Below the pieces are notes generated by a model. That model searched no databases, was not told where the DNA came from, and worked only from the letters and a program-made list of their open reading frames with translations. Made by a program: the position numbers and the translations under genes. From a virus, in IMG/VR virus record IMGVR_UViG_3300032241_001566, positions 1 to 39,740 of that record: 39,740 bases of DNA, one strand, 5' to 3'. Each line of letters opens with the position of its first letter. Within the stretch, counting starts at the first letter, position 1. This document shows, piece by piece, positions 1,936 to 6,095 of this stretch.

Positions 1936-2009
1936 AAATTAGTTGGCTGAGTTGTCAGTCCTCCTTGAGATTGTACAGATTGTGCTGTGCCGTCAGATTC
2001 TGGAGTATG

Positions 2010-2027
2010 CATGTTGGTAACAACATG
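2010..2027 (+). other. 7-bp hairpin with GTAA tetraloop
   Basis: CATGTTG at 2010-2016 pairs perfectly with CAACATG at 2021-2027 around GTAA, a GNRA-type tetraloop on the plus strand. GNRA loops are common in folded RNAs, so this hints that the region is transcribed rightward. Confidence 0.5.
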
Positions 2028-2251
2028 GAACACCGAGAGGGCAATCTGCATAGGGAACCCTCGATGAGTCTATATCTTATTTTATCTTGCGGATATAGAA
2101 CATGCGTTGCTGAATGAAATCCTAATTAAACGGACGTATATTCAACTACAGACCCAACAAACCTTACAGAGCAACCGGTGGCGAACGATGACAGAAAAAG
2201 TTGATTGTTCGGGGTATAGATGACAAAGGATGACGAGCATGGCATGTTTTT

Positions 2252-2283
2252 CCATTGGTAGTGCTAATTTAGCACTACCATGG
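2252..2283. repeat. Strong palindrome: 11-bp arms, 1-base centre, extended by 4 bp with one bulge
   Basis: GGTAGTGCTAA (2257-2267) and TTAGCACTACC (2269-2279) are perfect reverse complements around a single T. T2256 pairs with A2280 and, after bulging T2255, CCA pairs with TGG. No T-tract follows on either strand, so it is not a classical terminator. It could be a protein-binding dyad or an RNA stem. Confidence 0.65.
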
Positions 2284-2352
2284 CTTCAAAGCGGCATAGT
2301 ATCCCTAAAGAATTAGTTTTGATTAATACTTATATAGAATAGATTACCGTAA

Positions 2353-2441: not shown

Positions 2442-3493
2442 TTAGAAGAATGGAAGTTTTGTAGTCTTAGTTGTCTCTAAGTTCTCTTCAATTAACTTAT
2501 TAACGTAATCTCTTTCGGCATTACCCATGTTTAATAGGTCATTATATGATATACCACCGCGCATATACCAAGCCATCTTTATTGCATTATTTTTGATGGT
2601 TTCGCACTCTTTCTCCAATTGATCGATGTATTGCTTAATCTCTTCGGAGCTTAAGAGAAGAAGCTTTAGTCGAAAAAATCAGATACGTTTATGTTAAAGG
2701 GTTGTTGATATTCATGGTTGCAATTCATACATGTAATATCAAATGGTTTCAATTCAGTACTTTTTCTCAATTCAATATTAGCATCTTTGATTGCATTGTA
2801 TGTGTTTTTGTTACAATTGAGTAGAAATTCACGTATAAATTCTTTTTCTAATACCATTACAGATGGTGCTTTAATATACTCAATGGTTTCTACGATAATA
2901 TCCATTGAAATAGAATTGATGTGTTTTAATAAATCAGTTGACTTTTGATTCTTTTCATCACCGTCTTCCATTTGGTTAATAGCCAACAATTGTCGTTGAA
3001 TCTCAAATTGATCTTCACCTGCCAAATTCATCTGTTTATATGTTAAGGGTTTGAATTTGATTGCTAGGTCATCAATCATCAATGGTTGATTATAGTCACC
3101 GGGTTTGAAACTAGCTAATAATCCAGTTAAGTTAATATCATATTTGCTAGTTTCTTCACAAGCTGGGCATCTTGTTGATAATTCCATGGTACTACCATTG
3201 GTTGCAATTTTGATAGCAACTAATATTGGATCTAAATCGACATTTAGTACTTTCCATGGATCTTTGATATTTGGAACACAACTTTTGATAATTTCAGTAA
3301 CAGCAATCCCATTGAACAATGCATCGGGAGTTCTAGTTGTGATTTCATCTATTGCAGTCATTGGGTAAATAGGTAATTCTTGGTTGTCAGGCATGTCAAT
3401 TGTGTCAGGGCCATATGAACCTCCACCACTAGGGAGCTTCAAATATAAAGCAGGTCTACGAAAGTATTGTTTCAATGGGTTGTCTGTTGTCAT
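2442..3493 (-). CDS. Predicted -1 frameshift fusion: gp26-family protein plus 76-residue extension
   Basis: If ribosomes slip -1 at the T-TTT-TTC heptamer (2678-2672), 274 codons of the gp26-family gene are joined to a 76-codon -1 frame (2672-2442) ending in TAA, giving about 350 residues. The extension reads as real protein: an acidic helix (EEIKQYIDQLEKE), then MAWYMRGGISYNDLL, an NAERDYV helix and a LETTKTTKLPFF tail. It has no plausible independent start with a Shine-Dalgarno. The layout matches the gpG/gpG-T tail-assembly chaperone pairs known from many phages, where the frameshift product loads the tape-measure protein; a tape-measure-like gene starts 70 bases away on the other strand. 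Frameshifting itself is inferred. Confidence 0.72.
2640..2678 (-). promoter_or_regulatory. Programmed -1 frameshift signal: slippery heptamer and pseudoknot
   Basis: Reading the minus strand, T-TTT-TTC (2678-2672) sits in the X-XXY-YYZ register of the gene (codons GAT TTT TTC). A 6-base spacer (2671-2666) includes the zero-frame stop. Stem 1 is AGCTT (2665-2661) with AAGCT (2652-2648). Stem 2 is CTCTT (2657-2653) with AAGAG (2644-2640). Connecting loops are CTT and CCG with no base between the stems. This is a compact H-type pseudoknot at the usual distance. Confidence 0.7.
2666..3493 (-). CDS. gp26: gp26-family tail/baseplate protein (zero-frame product)
   Basis: A 275-residue protein of the T4 gp26-like baseplate family. 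It is named for the overall pattern: a proline-rich N-terminus (RRPALYLKLPSGG), a DEI-TRTPDALFNG segment at 48-62, and a split zinc ribbon made by Cys109-Pro-Ala-Cys112 and Cys255-Met-Asn-Cys258. T4 gp26 is shorter (about 208 residues). The ATG at 3493 has AGGAA six bases upstream. A perfect T4 late octamer TATAAATA lies 52 bases upstream on the same strand (3553-3546). The gene ends in a slippery site (see the frameshift entry), so this is the major product of two. It is divergent from the tape-measure gene, and a tail-assembly chaperone role is likely by inference. Confidence 0.8.
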   Translation of the reverse strand: MTTDNPLKQYFRRPALYLKLPSGGGSYGPDTIDMPDNQELPIYPMTAIDEITTRTPDALFNGIAVTEIIKSCVPNIKDPWKVLNVDLDPILVAIKIATNGSTMELSTRCPACEETSKYDINLTGLLASFKPGDYNQPLMIDDLAIKFKPLTYKQMNLAGEDQFEIQRQLLAINQMEDGDEKNQKSTDLLKHINSISMDIIVETIEYIKAPSVMVLEKEFIREFLLNCNKNTYNAIKDANIELRKSTELKPFDITCMNCNHEYQQPFNINVSDFFD

Positions 3494-3563: not shown

Positions 3564-6095
3564 ATGGCAGAAAATATAAACACCGAAGATACGCAACGAG
3601 CGTTAACTATGCTTGAAAGAGCAGCCATTGACGCCGCAAAAGCTAATGAGAAAAGTACCATTTCTGCCGGGCAACTTAAAAATGCTTTTGATGCATTTGG
3701 AAGACAATTAGGCTCTAATGTAGTTACTTTAGGCAAAACAGTTGCGTCTACCGGTGACGGAATGAGTAAGTTTGGTGGAGTTATTAATTCCACCGCAGAA
3801 AGTGTTGGTAATTTAGCTGAAATAATGCTTAAGGGATTTGGTCCCTTAGGATTTATTATAGGTGGTTTGGTTAAAGTAGTAGGAGCGTTGGGTGTAGCTT
3901 CTATGAAGCAAACAGATCAACTAATGTCATCTTATAGAAATCTGTCTGAATTAGGAGATTTAACTTCCGGTGGCTTAGATGAGTTGTCAAGCAATTTACA
4001 TAGAGTTGGATTGGTTGCGGAAGAAGCCGGAAAGTTTGAAGAATCACTTAGAAAAGTAACACCAGAGTTATCTAATTTAGGTAGTGTTAGTACAGGTGTA
4101 GCAAAGTATGTAGATACAGTCAGTGGACTAATAGGGCCAAATAATAAGATTGAAATTGGTCTTGAGAACATTGGCTACACAACTGATGCTATACGTGATG
4201 GTACTGCTGATTATTTGGCTAAACAAGCTAGACAAGGTACCTTGCAAGGTAAATCTATTGAACAGTTACGTGATGAGTCAGAAAAGTATTTGTATTCATT
4301 GAGAGAGTTGAGTGAACTAACAGGTTTACAAAGAGACCAAGCTCAGAAATTAATTGATGAGCAAATGCGAGATTTTAGGTATAATCGGTACTTAAGTGAA
4401 TTAGAAGCGTCAGGTAAACAAAAAGACGCTGAAAATACACGTGCATATATGGTTGCTTATCAAGCAACATTTGGTAAAGAAGCTGCGCAGGGGTTACAAG
4501 AAAAAATATATAATCATGGAGCTATAGTAGGTGAGTTGAGTGTAAGATCACACCAAGCAACAATGGGTAAAGATTATGAAGTATTTCAACAAGTTCAAAA
4601 AGGCAACATTGACGCTGCTCATGGTTTAAAACAGATTGCTGAAGCTAATCACACAGTAACACAACGATATAGCAAAACAATAGACATTGCCGGTGATTCA
4701 ATGAAAGATGTCACCGGTGATATGGAAATGATGAACGGGGCTCAGGCTACCTTAACTAGATCATATGAAAAAATAAATGAAAAAGTAAAAGAGTCTTCAA
4801 AACGTGAAGATGAAGTTGCACAGAACAATAAAAATGACCAAATTCAACGTCAATTGCGTATAGCTGCTGATGAAGCGTTACGTGAAGTTGCTAAAATAAC
4901 AACTGAAATTTTTACCAGATTGAATCAAGCTATGTTAAAATTTGGTAAAACATTAGCTAGTGTAGTGGATTGGATGAGTGGTTGGGTTCCTGGTATGACA
5001 AAAACTCATTTAGCAGATTCATTTAGAGATTTAGATGATAATGCCGCAGATTTGTTGCATGCTAAAAGGGAAGAATTAGCTCATTCTAGGGCACTAACAC
5101 AAGCACAAAAAGACTTAGCTGATGTAACTGATGATAGTAAATTTAATATAGAAGATCAAGTAAAAGCACAAAAAAAATTAGTCGAATCATTAAAAGATAC
5201 TAGTGAAAATGCAAAAACTGAAAGAGAAAAAGCAATTGCGCGCGGAAAATTAATAGGAGCTAATAATCGATTAGATCAATTAACTAATGAAGAAAAAGAA
5301 GGGAAAATGCATAGTAAAGTACATGGTAAGATTGATATTCCTACCATTATTAATATGCGAAAAGCTAGGATAGCTGAACTTGAGGCACAAGAAAAAGCAG
5401 ATAAGGCTGCTATTGAAAGATTGAATGCCGAACATGCAAAAATGTCCGGTGAGGGTGGTATGGAGGAACCAACTACTACAATAGAAAAAGGTTCTATGGC
5501 AGGATTGAAAATTAAAAAGGGAGATGTTCAATCAGCAGGTGCAACAGTTGATCCAAAACTTATTGAGATAGCAAGACAGGTTCAGTCGAATGTTGCTGGC
5601 TTTAAAAATTTTACTGGATTTAACGATAACTATCATCAAGAAAAAGCACCGCAAAGTGCACACACAAAAGGTCGTGCATTTGACTTTACACTTGATCATA
5701 AACCTTCAATAGCAGAGGGTGATGCAATTGTAAGAGCATTAATTGGAATGGGAGCAAAAAGTGCATTGGATGAATACAATCATCCATCATCAAATGCAAT
5801 CGGCTCAGGGCATATTCACGCAGAAATTTCTGGTAAGACACAAGGATTATTTAAAGGTCCCGATTCAGGATATCTATTACAAGCGCATGGTGAAGAGGCG
5901 TTATTGAATAAACAAGGGTTATCAAATCTTATAACCAAAACACAAATGCCAAATATGAATCCTGAGTCAAGTGATATATTCTCTGATATGTTAGATGCAC
6001 TTATGTCTTTAAAAGACGAGATTACCGAATTAAAGAACATATCTAGAAATTCGTTGACTGTCAATGAAGACATTTTAACGTATACAAAAGCTTAA
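3564..6095 (+). CDS. Tape-measure-like tail protein with C-terminal M15-type peptidase domain
   Basis: An 843-residue, largely helical protein. Residues 1-80 are polar. Residues 84-112 form a glycine-rich hydrophobic segment typical of tape-measure proteins. Residues 115-650 are charged helices with coiled-coil character. Residues about 662-760 match the M15 D-Ala-D-Ala carboxypeptidase/endolysin fold: HTKGRAFD supplies His700 and Asp707 and GHIH supplies His752, an intact zinc triad. The end (GEEALLNKQG, then a short coiled coil) resembles tape-measure C-termini. It would set tail length, and the peptidase could open peptidoglycan during DNA entry. AGG lies 8 bases before the ATG. It is divergent from the gp26/frameshift gene and sits directly upstream of the portal. 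Assignment as gp29-equivalent is by architecture, not by clear T4 similarity. Confidence 0.7.
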   Translation: MAENINTEDTQRALTMLERAAIDAAKANEKSTISAGQLKNAFDAFGRQLGSNVVTLGKTVASTGDGMSKFGGVINSTAESVGNLAEIMLKGFGPLGFIIGGLVKVVGALGVASMKQTDQLMSSYRNLSELGDLTSGGLDELSSNLHRVGLVAEEAGKFEESLRKVTPELSNLGSVSTGVAKYVDTVSGLIGPNNKIEIGLENIGYTTDAIRDGTADYLAKQARQGTLQGKSIEQLRDESEKYLYSLRELSELTGLQRDQAQKLIDEQMRDFRYNRYLSELEASGKQKDAENTRAYMVAYQATFGKEAAQGLQEKIYNHGAIVGELSVRSHQATMGKDYEVFQQVQKGNIDAAHGLKQIAEANHTVTQRYSKTIDIAGDSMKDVTGDMEMMNGAQATLTRSYEKINEKVKESSKREDEVAQNNKNDQIQRQLRIAADEALREVAKITTEIFTRLNQAMLKFGKTLASVVDWMSGWVPGMTKTHLADSFRDLDDNAADLLHAKREELAHSRALTQAQKDLADVTDDSKFNIEDQVKAQKKLVESLKDTSENAKTEREKAIARGKLIGANNRLDQLTNEEKEGKMHSKVHGKIDIPTIINMRKARIAELEAQEKADKAAIERLNAEHAKMSGEGGMEEPTTTIEKGSMAGLKIKKGDVQSAGATVDPKLIEIARQVQSNVAGFKNFTGFNDNYHQEKAPQSAHTKGRAFDFTLDHKPSIAEGDAIVRALIGMGAKSALDEYNHPSSNAIGSGHIHAEISGKTQGLFKGPDSGYLLQAHGEEALLNKQGLSNLITKTQMPNMNPESSDIFSDMLDALMSLKDEITELKNISRNSLTVNEDILTYTKA

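Follow-up and report, generated by a model that had tools for sequence, protein, structure and literature searches.

Introduction

Does the gp26-family gene of this phage specify one protein or two forms of one protein? The gene lies in a 39,740-base IMG/VR contig (IMGVR_UViG_3300032241_001566, positions 1 to 39,740), referred to here as the window, which also carries genes for a T4-like portal, prohead protease and major head protein. Close to its 3′ end a run of T residues precedes a second open frame. Several questions follow. Is the second frame entered by −1 slippage of the ribosome? Are the slip site and the frame kept among relatives? What might the two products do, and how do they compare with gp26 and gp51 of T4?

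Results and discussion

Reading frames at the locus

The frameshift feature is located wholly on the minus strand of the window (Table 1). A preliminary description, which left the strand unstated, had placed T-TTT-TTC in register before the zero-frame end, and this is what the sequence presents. The 3′ end of the gene reads TCT GAT TTT TTC GAC TAA in the zero frame, with the heptamer in the correct X_XXY_YYZ register for tandem −1 slippage. Because the −1 frame is shut by the TGA, a slip is possible only in the few bases between this codon and the zero-frame TAA. Among the 11,813 codons of the window T_TTT_TTY occurs in frame just twice, the other site being internal, so the presence of the gp26 heptamer is not attributable to chance.

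The −1 frame product is FFRLKLLLLSSEEIKQYIDQLEKECETIKNNAIKMAWYMRGGISYNDLLNMGNAERDYVNKLIEENLETTKTTKLPFF, 78 sense codons including those for the two slip-site phenylalanines, terminated by a TAA at 2442–2444. The frame stays open, as described earlier. That it has no start of its own is correct for the first 19 codons, which include no ATG, GTG or TTG; a TTG occurs at codon 20 and ATG codons from 34 onwards (0-based). In terms of coding potential, a slip close to its 3′ end would let the gene specify one protein in a short and a long version. Conservation, codon-level selection and a downstream stem-loop strongly support the assignment of a programmed −1 frameshift to the window gp26 gene.

Table 1. 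Positions of the features discussed, in window coordinates
Feature	Position	Strand	Basis
Short form (TAC-N, gp26 family), zero frame, 275 aa, ATG at 3493	2666–3493	−	PF12322, phrog_150, AlphaFold2/Foldseek
Slippery heptamer T_TTT_TTC	2672–2678	−	Sequence; kept in relatives
TGA closing the −1 frame, directly 5′ of the heptamer	2679–2681	−	Sequence; 0 codons open upstream
Zero-frame stop TAA, beginning 4 nt past the heptamer	2666–2668	−	Sequence
Stem-loop, likely frameshift stimulator, 7 nt 3′ of the heptamer	2633–2664	−	Predicted fold, paired cells in relatives, folding z
−1 frame extension (TAC-C), 78 codons and stop, all-helical mini-domain	2442–2678	−	dN/dS, AlphaFold2, profile match to T4 gp51/cyanophage extension
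Candidate tape-measure or tail structural protein, 843 aa, divergent neighbour	3564–6095	+	Inference
Conserved structured non-coding RNA, roughly 400 nt	1936–2330	+	Covariation in relatives

Conservation of the slip site

Three samples of relatives were assembled. The first, obtained with the window gp26 from IMG/VR and public phage records, comprises 37 distinct alleles including that of the window; gp26 identity is 35–97% for the metagenomic loci and about 24–31% for the isolates, which include Atu_ph07, Phosso, PA5oct, RaK2, 121Q, CBB, SCTP-2, XbC2 and Vibrio phage 2.275.O. TTTTTTC is in register in 36 of the 37, the −1 frame being open in all. Queries with cyanophage and Aeromonas phage phiAS5 gp26 gave a second sample of 60 distinct alleles, every one with a TTTTTTC that finishes 6 nt short of where the zero-frame stop codon ends. 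The third was collected by means of a 19-base DNA pattern outside the gene and adds 44 new distinct alleles; in all of them TTTTTTC is present, the extension has 78 codons and the distance to the zero-frame stop is unchanged. Because the alleles are related they do not amount to independent trials; their divergence is nonetheless large. Retention of the heptamer and the −1 frame among homologues, a check that the preliminary description had proposed, is therefore observed in all three samples.

Elsewhere in the surveyed gp26 genes 67% of phenylalanine codons are TTT, and TTT TTC is expected in approximately 22% of Phe-Phe pairs. At the slip site TTT TTC is fixed except in XacN1 and the preceding codon always ends in T. 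The exceptions to the heptamer itself are XacN1 (TTTTTTT), RL38J1 (TTTTTTG) and Pseudomonas phage Cygsa01, which has none.

The gp26 gene of Cygsa01 (locus L051, 2809–2982) ends AGC ATT TTC ACC TAA and is followed, with a TAATG overlap, by a gp51-like ORF; this lineage may have swapped frameshifting for reinitiation. A homologue that keeps the downstream frame and lacks the heptamer had been named beforehand as an argument against frameshifting. Cygsa01 is such a case, set against a heptamer that is otherwise near-universal.

Selection and composition of the extension

Selection was assessed with 21 ungapped 78-codon extensions from the window's clade over the region outside the overlap. Pairwise dN/dS values, where estimable, are 0.10–0.24, which is the purifying selection that the preliminary description had suggested looking for. 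Changes at the first, second and third codon positions number 6494, 4350 and 9479, an excess at the third, and the −1 frame is free of stops compared to averages of 6.1 and 7.7 in the other two frames. The length is invariably 78 codons in this clade and ten alignment columns do not vary, among them those of FFR at the junction and of a C-terminal P-x-F.

The short form and the extension were folded separately with AlphaFold2. The extension model (pLDDT 87) is an all-helical mini-domain, in agreement with the earlier impression of a protein-like, helical sequence. A Pfam search with the extension gave nothing over threshold. Likewise tblastn of the window extension alone against phages returned no match, and the extension of a relative matched only Atu_ph07 and Phosso. 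The RaK2-clade extensions share only 31–32% identity with that of the window and have neither MRGG nor the LPFF end.

RNA structure following the slip site

The window stem-loop consists of an outer stem, GCUU/AAGC, and an inner stem, UCUCUU/AAGAGA. In five relatives 92% of cells are paired, with compensating changes at two pairs. In nine relatives the 3′ arm of the outer stem is displaced by three bases, with 98.4% pairing as opposed to 35–59% in slid controls. A joint consensus fold of all 13 near relatives gave no structure because this arm moves three bases between subclades. Just 3′ of the heptamer, folding z averages −1.71 in the 37 alleles, compared with −0.14 for gp26 controls (p = 6e-9); in the 44 new alleles it is −2.84 using mononucleotide shuffles. 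The strength of the stem-loop is uneven and several RaK2-like isolates have z near 0, so it belongs to the window's clade and some others rather than to all. It would probably stimulate slippage.

The preliminary description had proposed a compact pseudoknot at this point. The interleaved 5-bp stems, AGCUU/AAGCU and CUCUU/AAGAG, are present as letters, but 59.2% of cells are paired in 13 relatives against 57.0% in shuffles, which is inside the shuffle range (102 of 500), and the pseudoknot is not supported. The conserved nested stem-loop reuses the second of its stems.

Protein family and comparison with T4

The earlier placing of the gene in the gp26 family is confirmed. The window short form matches PF12322 (E = 1.1e-14, 55.1 bits against a curated cut-off of 24.5) and phrog_150, 'baseplate hub' (E = 1.9e-17). 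Its AlphaFold2 model has pLDDT 88 and in Foldseek matches predicted T4-like baseplate hub proteins with E down to 4e-24; searches of the PDB with gp26 found nothing by sequence, and nothing by fold at E<=1. Comparison of jumbo phage gp26 profiles with single T4 sequences gives a weak signal; the Pfam and PHROG profiles do link them.

Foldseek against BFVD also returned proteins of 450–550 aa from Ralstonia phages RSF1 and RP12, Erwinia phage Special G and Aeromonas phage PS1 as matches to the gp26 model (E from 3e-4 to 5e-8), a hint that unrecognized tail chaperones may exist in those giant phages.

T4 gp26 and gp51 both belong to PF12322, and gp51 comprises a PF12322 domain (residues 1–201) and an extension of about 48 residues covered by phrog_150/634. 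The cyanophage extensions are covered by phrog_150/phrog_634 in the same way. The C-terminal end of the window product, ...ISYNDLLNMGNAERDYVNKLIEEN, resembles that of T4 gp51. With hhalign the extension aligns to a T4 gp51/cyanophage profile over 32 columns with 34% identity (P = 3.7e-4), a weak match of 36% probability.

Among 16 whole records T4 has two PF12322 matches, 14 others have one and SCTP-2 has none at the threshold used. In T4 the short version thus comes from gene 26 and the long one from gene 51, and the heptamer phages examined have a single PF12322 gene. T4 gene 26 ends GAG TTC TTT GAG TTA CTA TAA, with no −1 ORF and no intact heptamer. The previous remark that T4 has no described frameshift here is in keeping with this, and it is so because the long form is encoded by a separate gene, 51.

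Proposed mechanism and alternative explanations

We consider it very probable that the gp26-family gene encodes a tail assembly chaperone read in two ways, to give a short form and a slipped long form. The slip site, its frame, the selection, the RNA stem-loop, family membership and the single gene copy are observed parts of this explanation, from which we infer slippage and its rate, the chaperone role and the partners of the extension. Most ribosomes would stop at the TAA and release the 275-residue short form (TAC-N). A minority, slowed by the stem-loop approximately 7 nt downstream with peptidyl- and aminoacyl-tRNA-Phe on T_TTT_TTC, would move back by one base and continue in the −1 frame to give a long form, about 349 residues in all, that ends in a helical domain of 76 residues (TAC-C). 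If gpG and gpGT of phage lambda are a guide, coating of the tape-measure protein would fall to the short form and linkage of the coated complex to the tail tube would fall to the long form, and neither would be kept in the virion. The T4 equivalents would be the paralogous genes 26, the short form, and 51, a gp26-like domain with an extension. The suggestion that the gene encodes a tail chaperone was made in the preliminary description, and it finds backing in the PF12322 family, the gp51-like extension and an assignment that citing papers report as published. On the other side, no solved chaperone fold was matched; Foldseek with the gp26 and extension models identified no known chaperone of solved structure, the extension giving only a Moogle 'tape measure chaperone' at E=3.

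The product might instead be a structural subunit of the baseplate hub with a frameshifted variant. Most records carry the name baseplate hub, some T4-family records say hub subunit, and genetic studies, as cited in PMC3004832, assign gp26 to the T4 hub. The same paper names both gp26 and gp51 among the hub assembly chaperones, with gp51 absent from the particle, and two forms arising from a slip near the 3′ end are a hallmark of tail assembly chaperones. A structural role is accordingly unlikely. Less probable still is a separate small gene, in which case TAC-C would be made alone, either from a start codon within it or through reinitiation after termination at the overlapping stop, and no fusion would arise. 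The annotated records examined do present gp26 and the extension as separate CDSs, often overlapping as TAATG, with a joined CDS in none; many relatives have an ATG shortly after the zero-frame stop, and in cyanophages one lies a few codons into the extension. The title of Vladimirov 2022 names a mechanism other than frameshifting. The missing heptamer of Cygsa01 and the early cyanophage ATG indicate that some lineages may translate the extension independently. Such translation cannot account for the window, with no start in the first 19 codons, or for PA5oct, with none anywhere in the extension frame; three further relatives (L022, L024 and L026) have none before codon 34. Reinitiation also leaves unexplained the stem-loop and the in-register T6C of nearly every lineage.

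Slippage of RNA polymerase on the T6 run could open the same frame by adding a base, since a +1 insertion in the U run yields the same fusion, and XacN1 has seven T residues. Such slippage usually needs runs longer than six T, and the kept C, the codon register and a stem-loop at fixed spacing are the needs of tandem ribosomal slippage, which makes the polymerase a very improbable source of the fusion. A sequencing error or a decayed gene, the former raised in the preliminary description, has in its favour the disrupted frame itself and nothing more. Recurrence in independently sequenced isolates and metagenomes, with purifying selection, refutes it.

Comparison with known systems

Tail assembly chaperones in T4-like phages were reportedly assigned by Vladimirov, Gautam and Davidson in 2022 (doi 10.1016/j.virol.2021.11.003). 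The T4 genes meant there are presumably 26 and 51. Two later papers that cite it describe, in the passages concerned, T4-like phages with one short gene and one longer fusion gene (PMC10885494) and poly-T slip signals in T4-like chaperone genes (PMC12846349). As the assignment is, according to these citing papers, already published, we do not claim discovery of the principle. What this analysis adds is the locus in a jumbo clade, the stem-loop, the codon-level selection, the contrast of one gene with two, and a single survey of conservation over RaK2-like, PA5oct-like, Atu_ph07-like, cyanophage and Aeromonas phage genomes.

The likeness to T4 is in the family of the short form and in gp51, whose layout matches the long form with a related extension; the difference is that T4 uses two genes where the window has one gene and a −1 slip. 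With lambda gpG/gpG-T the window shares a slip by −1 close to the 3′ terminus of a chaperone gene, from which a short and a long product would arise; in lambda both are missing from the virion (PMC5009743). The slip site differs, there is no detectable sequence kinship, a stem-loop follows and, unlike lambda G-T, the gene does not immediately precede a tape-measure gene in the same orientation. The window system may work like the lambda type; we do not claim homology to it. The cyanophage and phiAS5 loci also have T_TTT_TTC a few bases before the stop and a −1 extension annotated as a separate CDS, but the extension is shorter (60–68 codons), an ATG is often early and the downstream sequence is different. 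In the Vandenendeviridae and Andersonviridae (PMC12846349) the chaperone gene of a myovirus likewise has a conserved −1 poly-T slip with a misannotated downstream ORF; there the motif is GTTTTT and the gene is upstream of the tape-measure gene.

We regard it as fairly probable that a single frameshifting gene is the ancestral and usual state in the T4 superfamily, including the RaK2-, PA5oct- and Atu_ph07-like jumbo phages and the cyanophages, with the stem-loop stimulator in the window's clade, and that the T4 26/51 pair is derived, its slip site having decayed. If so, this would explain why a review describes the G-T frameshift as conserved in long-tailed phages except T4 (PMC5009743). Independently of that history, the locus offers a testable account of gp26 and gp51, long-studied T4 hub-assembly proteins of unclear function, in that distant relatives encode their short and long counterparts in a single gene with a slip site. 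Jumbo phage and cyanophage records, for their part, divide what is probably a single protein between two annotated genes, 'baseplate hub' and 'hypothetical protein'.

The neighbouring gene

The divergent neighbour is a candidate for the tape-measure protein. Unlike the other large structural genes in the comparison, which are rich in strand, it is helix-rich, and its homologous family adjoins gp26, divergently transcribed, in most relatives. Lengths in this family are 620–1411 aa, some of them truncated where the locus ends or measured from stop to stop. Atu_ph07 has gp26 without an adjacent copy. Profile searches with the 843-residue protein gave no match to a tape-measure family, and a comparison with T4 gp29 did not link the two. 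By eye the C-terminal end resembles an M15-type peptidase (HTKGRAFDFTLDHKPS...GSGHIHAEI), with no Pfam match at the threshold used.

A structured RNA beside the proposed chaperone gene

Between a convergent PDDEXK gene, which ends at 1935, and the end of the extension at 2442 there are 506 nt (1936–2441), most of which are occupied by what is apparently a new structured non-coding RNA, possibly more novel than the frameshift. Alignment of the window RNA to eight relatives gives 60 consensus pairs with 97.6% of cells paired; 32 of the 60 are changed on both sides, compared with 14.5 in shuffles and 3–7 in slid controls. No Rfam family is matched at gathering score, the window and L024 having no match even at relaxed E-values and the L019 RNA having two weak sub-threshold ones.

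In isolated RaK2-like phages too, the extension is followed closely by a gap of roughly 700–800 nt that is largely free of long ORFs (L003 3052–3821, L005 3055–3859, L007 3055–3842, L009 3037–3874 and L053 3052–3736). A blastn search did not detect the sequence of the window RNA in these gaps, which may therefore hold an RNA that has diverged or is a different one.

An exact 19-nt core of the window RNA, ACTTTACAGGGCAACCGGT, is found in 85 IMG/VR contigs, with the chaperone extension within 1.5 kb in 76 and the PDDEXK gene in 77.
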